DNA of 64,000 bases from Glycomyces sambucus (GTDB taxonomy: Bacteria; Actinomycetota; Actinomycetes; Mycobacteriales; Micromonosporaceae): the NCBI RefSeq assembly GCF_900102815.1, contig NZ_FNGF01000002.1:62001-126000 (forward strand), given 5' to 3'. Positions 39,118-46,226 of this stretch are shown one piece after another. How positions within the stretch are numbered: the first letter of the stretch is position 1; every line of letters begins with the position of its first letter. The position numbers were made by a program, and so were the translations under genes. The notes under the pieces were generated by a model. It did no database searches. It was not told the origin of the DNA and worked only from the letters and a program-made list of their open reading frames with translations.

Positions 39118-39927
39118 TCAAGCCCGCGCCGCCAACCGCCGCAGGTGCTCGTGCGCGTACTCGCAGATCACGGCATGGCGGTACACCGCGTGCGGCACGT
39201 CCGCGTTCGAGTCGACCCGCACCGACAGGTCGCCGTTGCACCACCGCAGGAACGTCGGGTCGCCGGTGATCTCGGCGAGGATCGCCAGGATCGAGTCGTC
39301 GAACCGCATGGAGTGGACGGCACGGCGGTACTCCTCGGGGGTCAGGCACGCGGCGAACGGCAGGTTCATGAGGCACAGCGCGGTCTGGATGTCGAGCCGC
39401 ATGAGCCGCACCCGCTCCGGCTCGGCGTCCAGCTCGGGGATGTCGAGCCCCGTGAAGTCCGGGTCGGCCCGGCGCGCGACGGGCCCGAGCCCGGCGAGCA
39501 CCACGTACACGTTGACGTCGTGCTCGATGACGGCCGCGTCCCCGAGCCCCGCGAGGTCGGTGGGCCGCAGTGCGACCGGCTCGATCGCCGTGTCGGTGTT
39601 GCGGACGATGAAGTTGAGCAGGTTCGTCTCGATCACGAAGTGCCGGATGAGGAGTTCGACCGCGAGCGGGGACACGAAGCGGCGCAGGAACCAGATGCAG
39701 AGCCGGTCCATGAGCCGGTGCGCGGTCCAGCGCACCGGCGTGATCCGCTTGAGCACCAGGATGACCAGCGCCAGGACCCGCGAGACCGGCCGGGCGACCG
39801 GGTACAGCCAGGTGCGGGTCCAGCGGCGCTGGTCGTCGGCGATCTTGCGGGCGGTCTCGCGGTCGAGGACCAGCGAGGGGTCCCCGGTCACGGCGTCCCA
39901 GATCGGCGGCCCCGCGAGGTCAGACAT
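39118..39927 (-). CDS. Unknown membrane-associated protein coupled to KAS III-HDO fusion
   Basis: 269 residues, unrecognised with certainty; it may be a DUF6999-type protein (from memory, unverified). Seen directly: an amphipathic N-terminus, a hydrophobic basic-flanked segment (WLYPVARPVSRVLALVILVLK, about 41-61), a second aromatic/hydrophobic part (LCIWFLRRFVSPLAVELLIRHFVIETNLLNFIV, about 76-108), then a soluble part with EHDVNVYVVLAG and a C-terminus rich in His (HAVYRHAVICEYAHEHLRRL). Its ATG lies inside the end of the upstream gene (8-bp overlap, ATGTCTGA), so synthesis is translationally coupled. That points to a function with the ketosynthase-oxidase, perhaps tethering it or its lipid substrate to the membrane. 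Confidence 0.8.
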   Translation of the reverse strand: MSDLAGPPIWDAVTGDPSLVLDRETARKIADDQRRWTRTWLYPVARPVSRVLALVILVLKRITPVRWTAHRLMDRLCIWFLRRFVSPLAVELLIRHFVIETNLLNFIVRNTDTAIEPVALRPTDLAGLGDAAVIEHDVNVYVVLAGLGPVARRADPDFTGLDIPELDAEPERVRLMRLDIQTALCLMNLPFAACLTPEEYRRAVHSMRFDDSILAILAEITGDPTFLRWCNGDLSVRVDSNADVPHAVYRHAVICEYAHEHLRRLAARA

Positions 39928-41812
39928 TGTCGAGCTCTTCGAGCTGGAGCGCGTACAGGCGGGCGACGGTCTTCGCGGTGGAGACGATCGCGTCGGCCGC
40001 CGCGGCGTCGATGCGCGGTGACGCGAGGATCGCCTGGAGCTTCGCGAAGTGGTCGTCGTCGGCCTCCCCGTGGTAGGCCAGGAAGCTCACCTGGTCGTCG
40101 CGCAGGCCGAGCTGCTGCTGGAACTGCGCGGCCCACCCGGCGGCCTTCCCGGTGCCGAGCCCTTCGATGACGAACATGGCGCCGAGGAGCCCGACCGGGT
40201 CCGGCAGGCTCGCGGCGTGGAACATGTACGCCGACAGCGCCTCCGAGCCGATGTTCTTGCGCCCGTTGCGGATCGCCTCGATCGAGCCGCCGCACGCGGC
40301 GTAGTCCCGCTCGATCATCATGAAGTCGCGGTGCTCCTCGGCGGCGTGCCCGATCGCGGCGCTGCGCAGGTCGAAGTGGTCCACGGAGAAGTTCGAGGCG
40401 GCGCGGGAGATCCAGCGCGCGCCGTCGGCGACCTGCTGGCGCAGGTTGAACAGCAGCCGCAGGTAGTCGTCCAGGGTGGACTCCCCGTCGGCGAGGCGCC
40501 GCATGACCGGGACGGCGTCGAGGCGCCGCTCGAAGTCCTCCCACACCGCGTCGAGCCGCGCGAACACGTTCCCGTCCGAGGTCGGCGCCGCCCCGTGAAG
40601 CACCGCCTCGTGCGACACCTTCTCATGCACCACCGCGGCCGGCGCGGCGGCCCGCTCCGGCACCTGGACCGCCTGCGCCGCTTCGGGTCCCACGCACGTC
40701 AGGTGCGCGAACCCGAACGAGAACCGCCCCGACTCTGGCACCGCGAGGAGCACGGTCTGGCCCGGCTCGAACCGCCCGGTCCGCCAGCACTCCTCCAGCG
40801 CGATGAAGATCGAGGCCGCCCCGGTGTTCCCGCGCGTCTCCAGGTTCGAGAACCACCGGCCGGTGTCGATCTGCGCGCCCGTGGACGCGAGCTGGTCGAA
40901 CACGATGTCGCGGAACGCGTTCGTCGAGTAGTGGCACAGCACGTGGTCGAGCCGCTTGAGGTCGATGAGGCCGCGCTGCGCGAGCGAAGCGAACTCCTTG
41001 AGCCCCGCCTCGGCGAGCGCCCCGAGCGCCGACGTGTCTTGGCGCAGCAGCATCATCCCGGCCTGCTCGGCCGCGGCGGCGCTGCCCATGTCCTGCCAGG
41101 TCCGGCCCGCCTCGGGCGCGGCGCCGTCGGTCCCGGAGCGCATGCACACCGCGTGCTCGTGCGCGAGCGAGACAGTGCGGACCCAGTCGACCCGCAGCGA
41201 GGGCCGGTCGGGGCGCGGCCGGGCCTCCACGAGCACCGACCCGGCCCCGTCGGAGAGCATCCAGCGCAGGAAGTGCGCGTCGGTGTCGCTGCCGCCGCTG
41301 CCGTTGGCGCCGTGCGAGCCGTTGAACCGGGAGGCCCGCAGCCACCGGGACGCCAGCTCGGAGCCGACCACGGCCGCCCGCTGCCGGTCGCCGAGCCGCA
41401 CTTTCGCGACGGCCGCGTCGAGGGCCGCGATCCCGGAGGCGCACACCCCGGCCGCCGAGAGGAGCTGCATCGGCCCGCCGCCGATGCGCCCGTGCACCAT
41501 CGACGCGAACCCGGGCACCAGCAGGTCGCCCTGGGTGGTCGCGGTGGCGAGCATGTCGAGGTCGGCGGGGCCGAGACCGCGGTCGTCGAGCATCGACCGG
41601 AGCGCGGCGGCGGCCAGCTCCTCGTTCAGCTCGGTGGTGCGGCCGCGCTCGTCGAGCGCGTAGTGCCGCTTGGCGATCCCGTTGGCAGCGAGGATGCGGC
41701 GCCGCAGCCGGTCCCCCCGCGCGTCCACGCCGCCGAGGCGCGCGGCGATCTCGTCGTTCCCGACCGGGTCCCCGGGGAGGTACGCTCCCGCTGCGGTGAT
41801 GAAGGCGTTCAT
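39920..41812 (-). CDS. KAS III ketosynthase fused to haem-oxygenase-like di-iron oxidase
   Basis: 630 residues from ATG 41812 (GAGGC and GGAG upstream; weak). Residues 1 to about 375 are a FabH/KAS III-like thiolase fold with the full triad: Cys124 (SAAGVCASGIAAL), His294 (CHYSTNAF) and Asn329 (ETRGNTGAAS). After a linker (about 378-412) comes a helical domain (about 415-630) of the iron-containing redox enzyme/HDO group, with HAAEEHRDFMMIERDY (489-504), YMFHAASLPDPVGLLGAMFVIEGLG (529-553) and HxxxDxxH in HGEADDDH (581-588) as probable iron ligands. KAS III enzymes condense an acyl starter; HDO enzymes do O2-dependent C-C or C-N cleavage (UndA makes 1-alkenes from fatty acids). One chain could thus build and then oxidise or decarboxylate a lipid. 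An StlD/DarB-like condensation is an alternative for the first half. The product is unknown. Confidence 0.88.
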   Translation of the reverse strand: MNAFITAAGAYLPGDPVGNDEIAARLGGVDARGDRLRRRILAANGIAKRHYALDERGRTTELNEELAAAALRSMLDDRGLGPADLDMLATATTQGDLLVPGFASMVHGRIGGGPMQLLSAAGVCASGIAALDAAVAKVRLGDRQRAAVVGSELASRWLRASRFNGSHGANGSGGSDTDAHFLRWMLSDGAGSVLVEARPRPDRPSLRVDWVRTVSLAHEHAVCMRSGTDGAAPEAGRTWQDMGSAAAAEQAGMMLLRQDTSALGALAEAGLKEFASLAQRGLIDLKRLDHVLCHYSTNAFRDIVFDQLASTGAQIDTGRWFSNLETRGNTGAASIFIALEECWRTGRFEPGQTVLLAVPESGRFSFGFAHLTCVGPEAAQAVQVPERAAAPAAVVHEKVSHEAVLHGAAPTSDGNVFARLDAVWEDFERRLDAVPVMRRLADGESTLDDYLRLLFNLRQQVADGARWISRAASNFSVDHFDLRSAAIGHAAEEHRDFMMIERDYAACGGSIEAIRNGRKNIGSEALSAYMFHAASLPDPVGLLGAMFVIEGLGTGKAAGWAAQFQQQLGLRDDQVSFLAYHGEADDDHFAKLQAILASPRIDAAAADAIVSTAKTVARLYALQLEELDNV

Positions 41813-41883: not shown

Positions 41884-42522
41884 TCAGTCCCCGTCGATGC
41901 CCTGCTCGATCGCGTACCGCACCAGCTGGGCCCGGTTGTGCAGCTGGAGCTTCGCGAGGATGTGCTGGACGTGGTTCTGCACCGTCCGCGGCGACAGCGT
42001 CAGCCGCGCGGCGATCTCCTTGTAGCCCAAGCCCTTCGCCACGAGCCGCAGCACCTCGGTCTCGCGCTCGGACAGGCGTGGGCGCTCCTCGGGCTCCGGC
42101 GCGTTCGCCAGCCGCCGGTACTCGCCGAGGACCAGGCCCGCCAGGCCCGGCGTGAACACCGCGTCCCCGGCCGCCACCCGCTCCACCGCGTCCGCGAGCT
42201 CCGCGGGCGACGCCGACTTCACCAGGTACCCGCGCGCCCCGGCCTTGATCGCCTCCAGCACGTCGGAGGACTCGCCGCTCGCGGATAGCACCAGGACCGC
42301 CGTCGGGCAGTCCTCGCCCAGGCCCTGGAGCACCTGCACCCCCGACAGGCCCGGCATCTGGAGGTCGAGGATCGCCACGTCCGGCCGCAGCGACCGGATC
42401 CCCTCCAGCGCCGCCCGGCCCTCGCCGAACACGGCGAGCACCCGGTGCCCGGCCCCGGTCAGGTCCCGCGCGATGGCCTCCCGCCAGATCGGGTGGTCAT
42501 CGACCACGACGAGCGTCGCCAC
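41884..42522 (-). CDS. NarL/LuxR response regulator, MacR-like
   Basis: 212 residues. GTG 42522 has GGGAGG 6-7 nt upstream; GTG 42528 is too close to that site. The receiver domain (1-120) has acidic pocket DD at 8-9, phosphoacceptor D53 (ILDLQMPG) and conserved Ser/Lys (VLSAS, YLVKSAS). A linker leads to a LuxR-type HTH (about 148-210): LSERETEVLRLVAKGLGYKEIAARLTLSPRTVQNHVQHILAKL. Its start overlaps the kinase gene by 26 bp, so kinase and regulator are made together as one two-component system. The target is unknown. Confidence 0.9.
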   Translation of the reverse strand: MATLVVVDDHPIWREAIARDLTGAGHRVLAVFGEGRAALEGIRSLRPDVAILDLQMPGLSGVQVLQGLGEDCPTAVLVLSASGESSDVLEAIKAGARGYLVKSASPAELADAVERVAAGDAVFTPGLAGLVLGEYRRLANAPEPEERPRLSERETEVLRLVAKGLGYKEIAARLTLSPRTVQNHVQHILAKLQLHNRAQLVRYAIEQGIDGD

Positions 42523-43630
42523 CGGCACCTCCCTCCCGACGCGGCACCCGCATCTCCACCTCCGTGCCCTCCCCGGGCGCCGACACGAACTCGGCCGTCC
42601 CGCCCAGCTCCCTGATCCGGCCCCGGATCGACTGCGCCACACCGAGGCGGCCGTCCGCGGCCGCCGCCGCCAGCCGCTCGGGCGCGAACCCGGGCCCGTC
42701 GTCGCGCACACTCACCTGGACCGCGTCCCCCTCGTCCTCCACCAGCAGCCACACCCGCGTCGCCGCCGGGCAGTGCTCCCGCACATTGTCGACCGCGCTC
42801 GCCACCGCCGCCGCGAACTGCCGCGCCGTCTCGGCCGGCAGCAGCACCGGGGTCGCGGGGGCCGCCACCGTCACGTCCGGCCCCGCATGGCGCCCGACCA
42901 GTTCGCGTAGGTCCCGCTGCCCGTCCAGGGGCCGCCGGTACGACGCGGAGCGGATGAGCGCCCGCAGCGCCTCCTCCTGGCCGCCCGCGAGCCGCCCCAA
43001 CTCCGCGGCCTCGCCGCCGATCTCGGCCCCGCGCCGCTGGACCAGCGCCAGCACCTGGAGCACCGAGTCGTGGATGTCCCGCGCCAGCCGCTCGCGCTCG
43101 CGCGCGGCCGCGCTGCGCTCGGCCGCCTCCCGCATCCGCCGCTCGGCCTCCACCCCCAGCCGCACCAGGTGCCCGGCCGCGAACCCGGTGAGCACCAGCA
43201 GGACCGTCTCGTTCACGGTGCTGGAGTGGACGCCGCCGCGGAAGACCATCCCGGCCGCCGCGACCACCGCCCCCGCGACCGCCCCCGAGCGCCGCCCCGA
43301 GGCCGCCGCCCACGCGAGCACCGCCCCGGCCATCCACGGCCCCACCGAGATCGGCACCCCGCCGTCCACGGTCGCCAGCACCCACGACGACGCCCCCACG
43401 GCCGCGACCGTGACCGCCAGGTCCGCGTACAGCGCCGGCCGCCCGTACCCGCGCCGCCGGTACCACTCCGTCGCCAGCCACGTCCACCCCAGCAGCGCCA
43501 CCACCAGCAGCACCGCCCACAGCGGACGCACCAGCGTGTCGAACGCCAACGCGCCGAACAGGACCGGATAGCCGAGCGCGACGAAACGGAACACCGTGTT
43601 CGCCTTCCGCAGCTGCGTCTGAATCCCCAC
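42497..43630 (-). CDS. MacS-type sensor histidine kinase
   Basis: 377 residues. The N-terminus is a membrane sensor with about five or six helices (15-155), the actinobacterial MacS/DUF5931 arrangement opening ANTVFRFVALGYPVLFGAL. Then a HisKA_3 dimerisation helix with phospho-His H187 (RERERLARDIHDSVLQVLALVQRRG) and an HATPase domain (about 265-365: AVASAVDNVREH, DDGPGFAPERL, GTEVEMRVP). The N box is DNVREH. Some helices are very alanine-rich. It is cotranscribed with the response regulator. The signal is unknown; the divergent neighbour is the Hsp70-WD40 gene. Confidence 0.9.
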   Translation of the reverse strand: MGIQTQLRKANTVFRFVALGYPVLFGALAFDTLVRPLWAVLLVVALLGWTWLATEWYRRRGYGRPALYADLAVTVAAVGASSWVLATVDGGVPISVGPWMAGAVLAWAAASGRRSGAVAGAVVAAAGMVFRGGVHSSTVNETVLLVLTGFAAGHLVRLGVEAERRMREAAERSAAARERERLARDIHDSVLQVLALVQRRGAEIGGEAAELGRLAGGQEEALRALIRSASYRRPLDGQRDLRELVGRHAGPDVTVAAPATPVLLPAETARQFAAAVASAVDNVREHCPAATRVWLLVEDEGDAVQVSVRDDGPGFAPERLAAAAADGRLGVAQSIRGRIRELGGTAEFVSAPGEGTEVEMRVPRREGGAGGDARRGR

Positions 43631-43706: not shown

Positions 43707-46226
43707 ATGTCCTTCTCCAGCCCCCGGCCCGCGTCGATCAGCATCGACTTCGGCACCTCCCACACGGTCGCGACGATCCGCCGCGCCGACGGGCGGGTCC
43801 ACCAGCAGCTGTTCGACGGCTCCCCGCAGCTGCCCAGCGCGGTGTTCATGAACGACGAGGGCGGTCCCGTCGTCGGCGCTGACGCCGTCCACTCCGGCCG
43901 CCGCCGGCCCGACCGCTTCGAACCCAACCCCAAGCGCCGCATCGACGACGAGTCGATCCTCCTCGGCGACACCGAGATCCCCGTGACCAGCGTGATCGCG
44001 GCCGTCCTCTCCCGCGTCGCCCGCGAGTGCGAGCACACGCTCGGCGCGCTCGGCCCGGTCACCGTCACCGTGCCCGCCGCCTGGGGCCCGACCCGCCGCC
44101 ACGTCGTCGCCGACGCCGCGACCGCCGCCGGGCTCGGCCAGGTCGACCTCGTCGCCGAACCTGTCGCCGCCGCCTCCTACTTCGTGGAGACCCTCGGCAC
44201 CGACGTCGCCCCCGGCTCCGGCGTCGTCGTCTACGACCTCGGCGGCGGCACCTTCGACGCCACCGTCCTGCGCCGCAGCACCAACGGCTTCGACGTCCTC
44301 GCCGTCGACGGCGCCGGCGACCTCGGCGGCCTCGACTTCGACCAGGCCCTCGCCGAGCACCTCGCCGCGAGCGTCCAAGCCGAGGACGAGCGCTGGGCCC
44401 GCCTCACCAGCCCCACCGAACCGGCCGACCTGCGCCACCGCACCGCCTTCATGGAGGAGGTGCGCCAAGCGAAGGAGCGCCTGTCCCGCTCGGCCTCCAC
44501 CGACCTCACCATCCCCCTCCTCGACGTCGACGCCCACCTCACCCGCGACGAGGTCGAACGCGTCTGCGCCCCGCTCGTGGCCCGCACCATCCGCGTCACC
44601 CAGGGCGTCCTGCGCGAGTCCGGCCTCGCCGCCGAGCAGATCGCCGGCCTCTTCCTCGTCGGCGCCGCCTCCCGCATGCCGCTGGTCGCCACCGCCCTCC
44701 ACCGCGAACTCGGCATCGCCCCCGCCGCCATCGAGCAGCCCGAACTCGCCGTCTCCGAAGGCGGCCTGGTCGCCCAGCACACCGTCAACACCCCGATCGC
44801 CGTCCCCAGCCCGGCCCTGCCCCCGCAGACCGCGCCGCCGGTCCCGTCGGCCCCGCCCGCGCCCGACACGAACCAGACCATGCAGCTCCCGCCGCACCCG
44901 AGCGCGCCCCCGGCCGGGCACCCGAGCCCGGTGCCGACCCCGCAGGCCGTCCCCGGCTACCCGAGCCCGGTCACGCAGCCCGCCATGGCCGCCCCGCAGG
45001 GTCCGCCGCCGCCCGGTTACCCGCAGGTCCCCGGATACCCGGCGCCGCAACCGAACCCGACTCCGTGGATCAGGACCAAGCAGGGTCTCACCACCGTCGG
45101 CACGGCCGCCGCGGCCGTGGTCCTCGCGCTGGCGGTCATCATCGGGCTCCAGTTCCTGCCCGACGAGGGCGCGGACGACACCGCGGGCGGTTCGGAGCCC
45201 CAGAGCGAGAACAGCTCCGAGGACGAGGGGAACGCCTCCTCCGACAACGGCGGCGACGACGAGGCGTCCGAGGCCGGGGAGGGCTCCGGGCTCGTTCCGA
45301 TCGGCGAGGCCGTCCAGGGCGACCTCGTCGCCGACATGCAGCAGGCCCACACCGGAGCGGTCTCCGCTGTTCGCAGTGGATACATCGACTCCGCGCCCGT
45401 CGCGGTCACCGCGGGGGAGGACGCGATCGTCCGCATCTGGGACCTCGCGACCGGCGAGAAGATCGACGAGTACCGCGGACACCAGGGCCCGGTCGACCAC
45501 CTCTCGGTCTTCGAGTACGACGGCGAGTGGATCGCGTTCAGCCGCGACTCGACCACCGAGGCCGTCTGGCCCCTCGCCGACCCCGCGACGCCGATCGCCG
45601 AGCGCGAGGCCGGGTACGACTCGATCTACTGGGTCGGTCTGTGGGACGGCGTGCCCGCCTACCTCACCGACTACGAAGTGCGCCAGCTCTACACGGGCGC
45701 CTCGATCGCCGACATCTCGACCGCGTACGCCGACCACTCCGGCATGGTCGCGGTCGGCGGCGTCCTGCGCCACGTCGGCACCTACGAGAACCGCGTGTTC
45801 GTGGCCGACCTCGCCACCGGCGAGCCGGCCGGGGCCACGTTCGACCAGCTCTCCTACGACGTGGTCGCCTTCGGCGCGGGCCCGGCCGCCGGGAAGGACC
45901 TCGGCGTCACCGTGACCGCCCAGGGCTCGTTCCAGGCGTGGGACCTCGCCACCGGCGAGCCGTTCGGCACCGCCGGGGAGGAGCTGCTCCAGCAGGTGAC
46001 CTCGGTCGGTGTGACCGACATCGACAGCGCGGCCGTCGCGGTCCTCCAGGGCAGCCAGGGCCTGAGCATGTTCGACCTGTCCACAGGGGAGCAGCTGGGC
46101 GAGGTCTTCGCGCCGCACGCGGGGGAGGACCTGATCCAGACCTCCGCGTTCGCCGAGATCGACGCCAACCCGGTCGTCGTCACCGGCTCCGCCACCGGCG
46201 ACGTCCAGGTCTGGGCCCTCAAATGA
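43707..46226 (+). CDS. Transmembrane Hsp70/WD40 fusion protein
   Basis: 839 residues, in order: an Hsp70/DnaK-like actin-fold ATPase (about 8-360) with phosphate-1 motif SIDFGTSHTVATI, TVTVPAAWGPTRRHVVADAA, YDLGGGTFDATVLR and LVGAASRMPLV; a Pro-rich linker (about 370-455); one membrane helix (about 462-485, VVLALAVIIGLQFL); an acidic Asp/Glu/Ser stretch (about 486-535); and a C-terminal beta-propeller-like part (about 545-839) with WD-like repeats such as VTAGEDAIVRIWDLATGEKIDEYRGHQGPV and closing VTGSATGDVQVWALK. There is no peptide-binding Hsp70 C-domain. The ATPase should be inside the cell and the propeller outside. A chaperone role is unlikely; an ATP-driven or signalling scaffold across the membrane is my inference. 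A TACAGT box 6 nt before ATG fixes the start. Confidence 0.87.
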   Translation: MSFSSPRPASISIDFGTSHTVATIRRADGRVHQQLFDGSPQLPSAVFMNDEGGPVVGADAVHSGRRRPDRFEPNPKRRIDDESILLGDTEIPVTSVIAAVLSRVARECEHTLGALGPVTVTVPAAWGPTRRHVVADAATAAGLGQVDLVAEPVAAASYFVETLGTDVAPGSGVVVYDLGGGTFDATVLRRSTNGFDVLAVDGAGDLGGLDFDQALAEHLAASVQAEDERWARLTSPTEPADLRHRTAFMEEVRQAKERLSRSASTDLTIPLLDVDAHLTRDEVERVCAPLVARTIRVTQGVLRESGLAAEQIAGLFLVGAASRMPLVATALHRELGIAPAAIEQPELAVSEGGLVAQHTVNTPIAVPSPALPPQTAPPVPSAPPAPDTNQTMQLPPHPSAPPAGHPSPVPTPQAVPGYPSPVTQPAMAAPQGPPPPGYPQVPGYPAPQPNPTPWIRTKQGLTTVGTAAAAVVLALAVIIGLQFLPDEGADDTAGGSEPQSENSSEDEGNASSDNGGDDEASEAGEGSGLVPIGEAVQGDLVADMQQAHTGAVSAVRSGYIDSAPVAVTAGEDAIVRIWDLATGEKIDEYRGHQGPVDHLSVFEYDGEWIAFSRDSTTEAVWPLADPATPIAEREAGYDSIYWVGLWDGVPAYLTDYEVRQLYTGASIADISTAYADHSGMVAVGGVLRHVGTYENRVFVADLATGEPAGATFDQLSYDVVAFGAGPAAGKDLGVTVTAQGSFQAWDLATGEPFGTAGEELLQQVTSVGVTDIDSAAVAVLQGSQGLSMFDLSTGEQLGEVFAPHAGEDLIQTSAFAEIDANPVVVTGSATGDVQVWALK

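Follow-up and report, generated by a model that had tools for sequence, protein, structure and literature searches.

What does a ketosynthase make when it is produced as one chain with an oxidase-like helical domain, and does the small gene that overlaps it belong to the same pathway? The locus that raises these questions lies in a 64,000-nucleotide stretch of Glycomyces sambucus DNA (contig NZ_FNGF01000002.1, positions 62,001 to 126,000; hereafter the window), one stretch of a genome of 5.6 Mb in 16 contigs. The first-pass annotation of this DNA had described a single 630-residue chain joining a ketosynthase to a haem-oxygenase-like di-iron oxidase (HDO) domain and a following gene that overlaps it by 8 bp; both descriptions are confirmed, the one by the open reading frame (41812 to 39920, minus strand) and the other by the bases shared between the stop of the fusion and the start of its neighbour, ATGTCTGA. 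We find that the ketosynthase, the HDO domain and the neighbour, a protein of family DUF6999, form one conserved biosynthetic unit. The module combines enzymes of known kinds in a new way and has two peculiarities, an Asp in the metal motif of the HDO domain and an orphan DUF as constant partner.

The linkage of the three parts is far beyond chance. When named genomes were scanned with an alignment of DUF6999, 118 stretches matched and 89 proved to be relatives; the best 80, all from Actinomycetota, were kept, a set in which distant DUF6999 genes are unrepresented. In 80/80 of these loci (best 80 of 89 relatives) the ketosynthase comes first, the HDO second and DUF6999 third, all on one strand, with the first two in one frame in 35 and as two genes in 45. 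The fusion itself occurs in 27 of 121 genomes, that of the window included (25 one-piece and 2 two-piece matches), the others being 55-94% identical. In a reciprocal test on 354 genomes of the window's family, DUF6999 (E up to 0.001) and the HDO clade (E up to 1e-10) were each found in 41 genomes, the same 41, and adjacent by coordinates; among 369 genomes of a second family (that of genome G457) the numbers were 11 and 11, again in the same genomes and adjacent. As linked loci supplied the sequences for both profiles, the outcome applies to this clade of HDOs and not to all PF14518 proteins. The first-pass annotation had taken the fusion and the overlapping small gene for one unit and looked to the neighbourhoods of homologues for a conserved pairing, and the pairing is there in every locus and in both genome sets.

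Across genomes the module is patchy. A phylum-wide draw found DUF6999 in 4 of 396 genomes, the window's genome among the four, and four of 22 same-genus genomes (G010, G013, G015 and G020) have no match to the module HDO or DUF6999, suggesting that the module is dispensable or patchily inherited. In a quick module tree the neighbours of the window sequence are Glycomyces artemisiae and G. terrestris. Phytomonospora is placed within Glycomyces, and Cellulomonas within Microbacterium, two positions consistent with transfer of the whole unit; the labels fused and split need two changes on this tree. One locus (L038; G064:C50:92178-92345) holds a 56-residue stretch, 66% identical to the ketosynthase and with one stop, that is possibly the remnant of a lost module. 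Outside Actinomycetota, Pseudoalteromonas sp. THAF3 carries the trio on pTHAF3_a as three separate genes, and its separate HDO (P0006) has no PF14518 among the matches listed. Directly upstream of the Pseudoalteromonas ketosynthase lies a gene for a 185-aa His-rich, strongly hydrophobic protein (L127:14442-14999), with no Pfam match up to E 0.1 and no NCBIfam match up to E 0.01.

The ketosynthase domain gives the first indication of a product. As had been annotated, its KAS III triad is complete: Cys124, His294 and Asn329 align with the triad of StlD and KAS III enzymes and do not vary in any of 82 sequences (the 80 named loci, the window and Pseudoalteromonas), nor does Glu152, which aligns with Glu154 of StlD. 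The nearest solved structure by sequence is StlD (PDB 5gk0, E 4.6e-66, against 8.4e-16 for the best FabH-type chain), and a fold search with the model also puts StlD (5gk0/5gk2) closest among the matches listed, so that the domain is clearly nearer to StlD than to OleA or FabH. We call it StlD-like and do not file it as DarB because its scores lie under the NCBI cut-offs for StlD/DarB (NF005293, E 1.4e-101 and 340.3 bits against 450; NF053539, 297.5 bits against 550). StlD is the ketosynthase of the stilbene pathway and DarB that of dialkylresorcinols. The likeness to both consists in closest sequence and fold over residues 1-374, the shared Cys/His/Asn triad and the conserved Glu, whereas here, besides the scores, the ketosynthase is fused to, or followed by, an HDO, with DUF6999 as constant partner. 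The linker between the domains differs in length among relatives and is nearly absent in one (L036). The pairing with an HDO is not exclusive, as a Streptomyces plasmid (L128) has a DarB-like ketosynthase and acyl carrier protein genes with no annotated HDO nearby; this is a different DarB-type cluster, which holds two such carrier genes, a 321-aa protein without NCBIfam match, an FAD monooxygenase, an SCP2 protein and a P450.

The HDO domain matches PF14518 (Haem_oxygenas_2; E 1.9e-9, 38 bits, over the gathering cut-off of 28.9), and its model is confident and all-helical over residues 414-630 (helices 447-474, 477-506, 542-568 and 576-596). A profile of 22 HDO relatives retrieved a single solved chain, 3dde, an uncharacterised protein of the haem-oxygenase fold (E 2.6e-9), and nothing else up to E 10; in the fold search the matches listed were taken up by ketosynthases. 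HAAEEHRD (489-496) and HxxxDxxH (581-588) had been read as typical of a di-iron HDO; both motifs and the family stand, but the first canonical His does not. H489, E493, H494, D496, E550, H581, D585 and H588 are identical in 82/82, which keeps five of the six expected ligand positions (E493, E550, H581, D585 and H588), and the sixth, that of the first His, is Asp496 throughout. The canonical E-H-E-H-D/E-H motif of three histidines and three carboxylates (3H/3C) is thus absent from all 82 sequences, E493-x2-D496 replacing E-x2-H. Three residues after the Glu, 3dde and the aligned HDOs from Citrobacter, Vibrio, Variovorax and Pseudoalteromonas donghaensis have a His, which the Citrobacter HDO aligns with the E-F-G-H motif of MboA (a weak match, E 0.047). 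The Fe ligands of MboA include Glu86 and His89, and in one chain Fe1 is bound by the neighbouring Asp90, with His89 partly displaced (PMC13185094). A carboxylate at the position of D496 is therefore plausible, if unproven, as a ligand, and H489 or H494 could still contribute to the putative metal site. For comparison, the FlcD paper assigns E-H-X-H-D-H or E-H-X-H-E-H, with helix 1 providing the first two ligands, to about 85% of the HDO groups analysed, and gives no strong prediction for about 9% (PMC11363339).

With HDO enzymes such as UndA, SznF, BesC, CADD, FlcD and MboA the domain shares the PF14518 match, five of six ligand positions on three helices and H-x3-D-x2-H in the third; it differs in the E-x2-D of the first ligand helix, where the aligned HDOs have E-x2-H, and in its fusion to a ketosynthase. 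HDOs 25-27% identical to that of the module occur in clusters of an AMP-binding protein, an HDO and a short-chain dehydrogenase/reductase (SDR) on Vibrio, Citrobacter, Variovorax and Pseudoalteromonas replicons, where the HDO stands beside the AMP-binding protein (in one frame with it in Pseudoalteromonas donghaensis). Unlike the module, these clusters keep E-x2-H, have an AMP-binding partner and no ketosynthase, and show no annotated DUF6999 alongside in the stretches seen. The annotated order on four replicons (L129, L130, L131 and L133) is thermostable hemolysin, AMP-binding protein, iron-redox protein (the HDO), SDR and hypothetical protein, and in L133 the AMP-binding protein and the HDO are a single annotated gene.

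The changed motif raises the possibility that the HDO domain is metal-free and no oxygenase, and shapes, releases or rearranges the ketosynthase product. One of six positions is altered in 82/82, and metal-independent enzymes of this fold exist in pyrroloquinoline quinone and thiazole synthesis (PMC13108848). We nevertheless consider this unlikely, given that the other five ligand positions are invariant, that D496 is itself an invariant carboxylate and that an Asp beside the equivalent His can bind Fe1 in MboA (PMC13185094). With their altered metal motif, these HDOs form a subgroup in which to test how the site sets the chemistry.

The third member of the unit had been described as a membrane-associated protein without a name. 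The 269-aa protein is a full-length member of PF22523 (DUF6999; E 9.1e-82, 274.6 bits against a cut-off of 27), a family without assigned function, and the membrane part of the description is plausible from hydrophobicity: the most hydrophobic 19-residue window scores 1.78 (residues 41-59), and 59 of the 82 sequences reach 1.6 somewhere. Its model is nearly all helical (predicted local distance difference test, pLDDT, 82.8; predicted template modelling score, pTM, 0.84). H96, E100, H136, D137, D179, H251 and E256 are identical in 82/82, a set that may be of the kind kept by a metal enzyme. The module gives this orphan family a concrete biochemical context. Among the papers listed from the open-licence literature searched we found neither DUF6999 nor, by titles and the starts of abstracts, a ketosynthase-HDO fusion, which is no proof of absence for either.

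We hypothesize, giving the idea an even chance, that the module makes a cyclic dione- or resorcinol-type lipid through its ketosynthase, that the HDO oxidises this lipid and that DUF6999 acts on it or anchors it. Judging from its kinship with StlD, the ketosynthase would take a fatty-acyl or beta-ketoacyl thioester of primary metabolism onto Cys124, couple it to a second acyl unit and close a dialkyl-cyclohexane-1,3-dione (or carboxy-dione) ring. The tethered HDO would then use iron (or Fe/Mn) and O2 on the ring lipid, most plausibly for a dehydrogenation or an oxidative decarboxylation to the resorcinol, or for a hydroxylation. DUF6999, with its hydrophobic helix and invariant His, Glu and Asp residues, may act on the product or hold it at the membrane, and in Glycomyces and its kin the two-component system next to the module may regulate it or respond to what it makes. 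Dialkylresorcinols are known to be made by DarB as cyclase and DarA as aromatase (PMC3949708), with diones as intermediates on the way to resorcinols (PMC4414361); an oxidase on the same chain as the cyclase would be well placed for the step of DarA. Among the reactions known for HDOs are desaturation and C-C cleavage that forms olefins (PMC13108848), which fits the proposed oxidation of a ring lipid. If true, the module would make dialkylresorcinol-type lipids by a route that depends on O2; antibiotics and cell-cell signals both occur in this class.

Several findings weigh against this hypothesis. Ring chemistry is not assured, given that the ketosynthase scores under the NCBI cut-offs (340 against 450 and 298 against 550). 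Genome G120 has a 40%-identical ketosynthase, matched over residues 1-380 only, without a fused HDO and without a PF22523 match; this kind of ketosynthase chemistry as such therefore need not involve an HDO. With Asp496 where the canonical site has a His, the domain could bind a different metal or no metal at all. Finally, PF22523 also scores over its cut-off in Caulobacter vibrioides, one of 14 control genomes and a model organism that would be a handy genetic test bed.

The first-pass annotation had instead suggested that the two genes may build a beta-keto or branched lipid and trim it oxidatively, as a compact hydrocarbon or lipid pathway. On this reading the ketosynthase would make an acyl chain, linear beta-keto or branched, which the HDO would decarboxylate to an alkene or other hydrocarbon in the manner of UndA. 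As put, this claim is not borne out: the ketosynthase is clearly closer to StlD than to OleA or FabH, which makes a cyclic dione- or resorcinol-type product the likelier one, the HDO profile finds only 3dde among solved structures up to E 10, and D496 replaces the canonical His in a ligand set that is not the textbook one. We regard such a route as possible, less likely than a ring lipid and, by itself, quite improbable.

The ring-lipid hypothesis also has a bolder form, which we put forward as speculation that probably does not hold as a whole. The module would be a self-contained ring-lipid synthase with no acyl carrier of its own, in which the StlD-like ketosynthase passes its ring product covalently to an HDO with a carboxylate-rich ligand set (E-D-E-H-D-H); the HDO would use O2 to aromatise or oxidise the ring in place of DarA. 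DUF6999 would complete the lipid as a membrane enzyme of a new class, and the Glycomyces product may feed the two-component system. The module itself points to a small pathway of patchy distribution, with parts that can readily be co-expressed.

Table 1. Features of the module and of the regulatory genes beside it (window positions).
Feature	Position	Strand	Details
Ketosynthase-HDO fusion open reading frame	41812 to 39920	-	630 aa; translation of the open reading frame
DUF6999 (PF22523) protein	39118..39927	-	269 aa; start inside the end of the fusion gene, 8-bp overlap
StlD-like ketosynthase domain, residues 1-375	40688..41812	-	Cys124, Glu152, His294, Asn329
Ala/Pro-rich linker, residues 380-413	40574..40675	-	low-confidence, pLDDT under 50 in model
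HDO domain (PF14518), residues 414-630 and stop codon	39920..40573	-	profile match, model
HAAEEHRD, residues 489-496, first ligand helix	40325..40348	-	E493-x2-D496 against E-x2-H of other HDOs
H581-x3-D585-x2-H588, third ligand helix	40049..40072	-	alignment of 82, model
LuxR-type response regulator (Response_reg and GerE)	41884..42525	-	start inferred from 213-aa homologue in L026
Histidine kinase (DUF5931 and HATPase_c)	42497..43630	-	upstream partner in Glycomyces and some Micromonosporaceae

Neighbouring genes, predicted with a simple gene caller, were grouped by BLAST clusters without functional annotation, and 23 of the 80 loci, chosen across lineages, were listed; in these no gene cluster but that of the kinase/regulator pair recurs beside the trio across lineages, which fits the earlier description of a unit without dedicated acyl-carrier genes. 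Kinase and response regulator genes belonging to these same clusters accompany the module in at least 20 of 80 loci, a lower bound as some loci are cut and genes missed, directly upstream in the window and directly downstream in Trebonia (L119). That the module makes a diffusible dione- or resorcinol-type signal sensed by this pair, as dialkylresorcinols signal in Photorhabdus, is the least probable of the readings: the pair recurs on either side of the module and dialkylresorcinol and cyclohexanedione signals are sensed by PauR, but PauR is a LuxR-type receptor and not a histidine kinase (PMC4414361), no such pair turned up in the remaining 60 of 80 loci, none of the 10 Micrococcales loci listed has it next to the module, and the link may be ordinary gene control. 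Beyond the kinase, positions 43707-46226 (plus strand) encode an Hsp70-type ATPase (PF00012, E 1.6e-38) with a C-terminal WD40-like beta-propeller part (WD40-type matches), a gene present in 4 of 18 loci compared, that of the window included.
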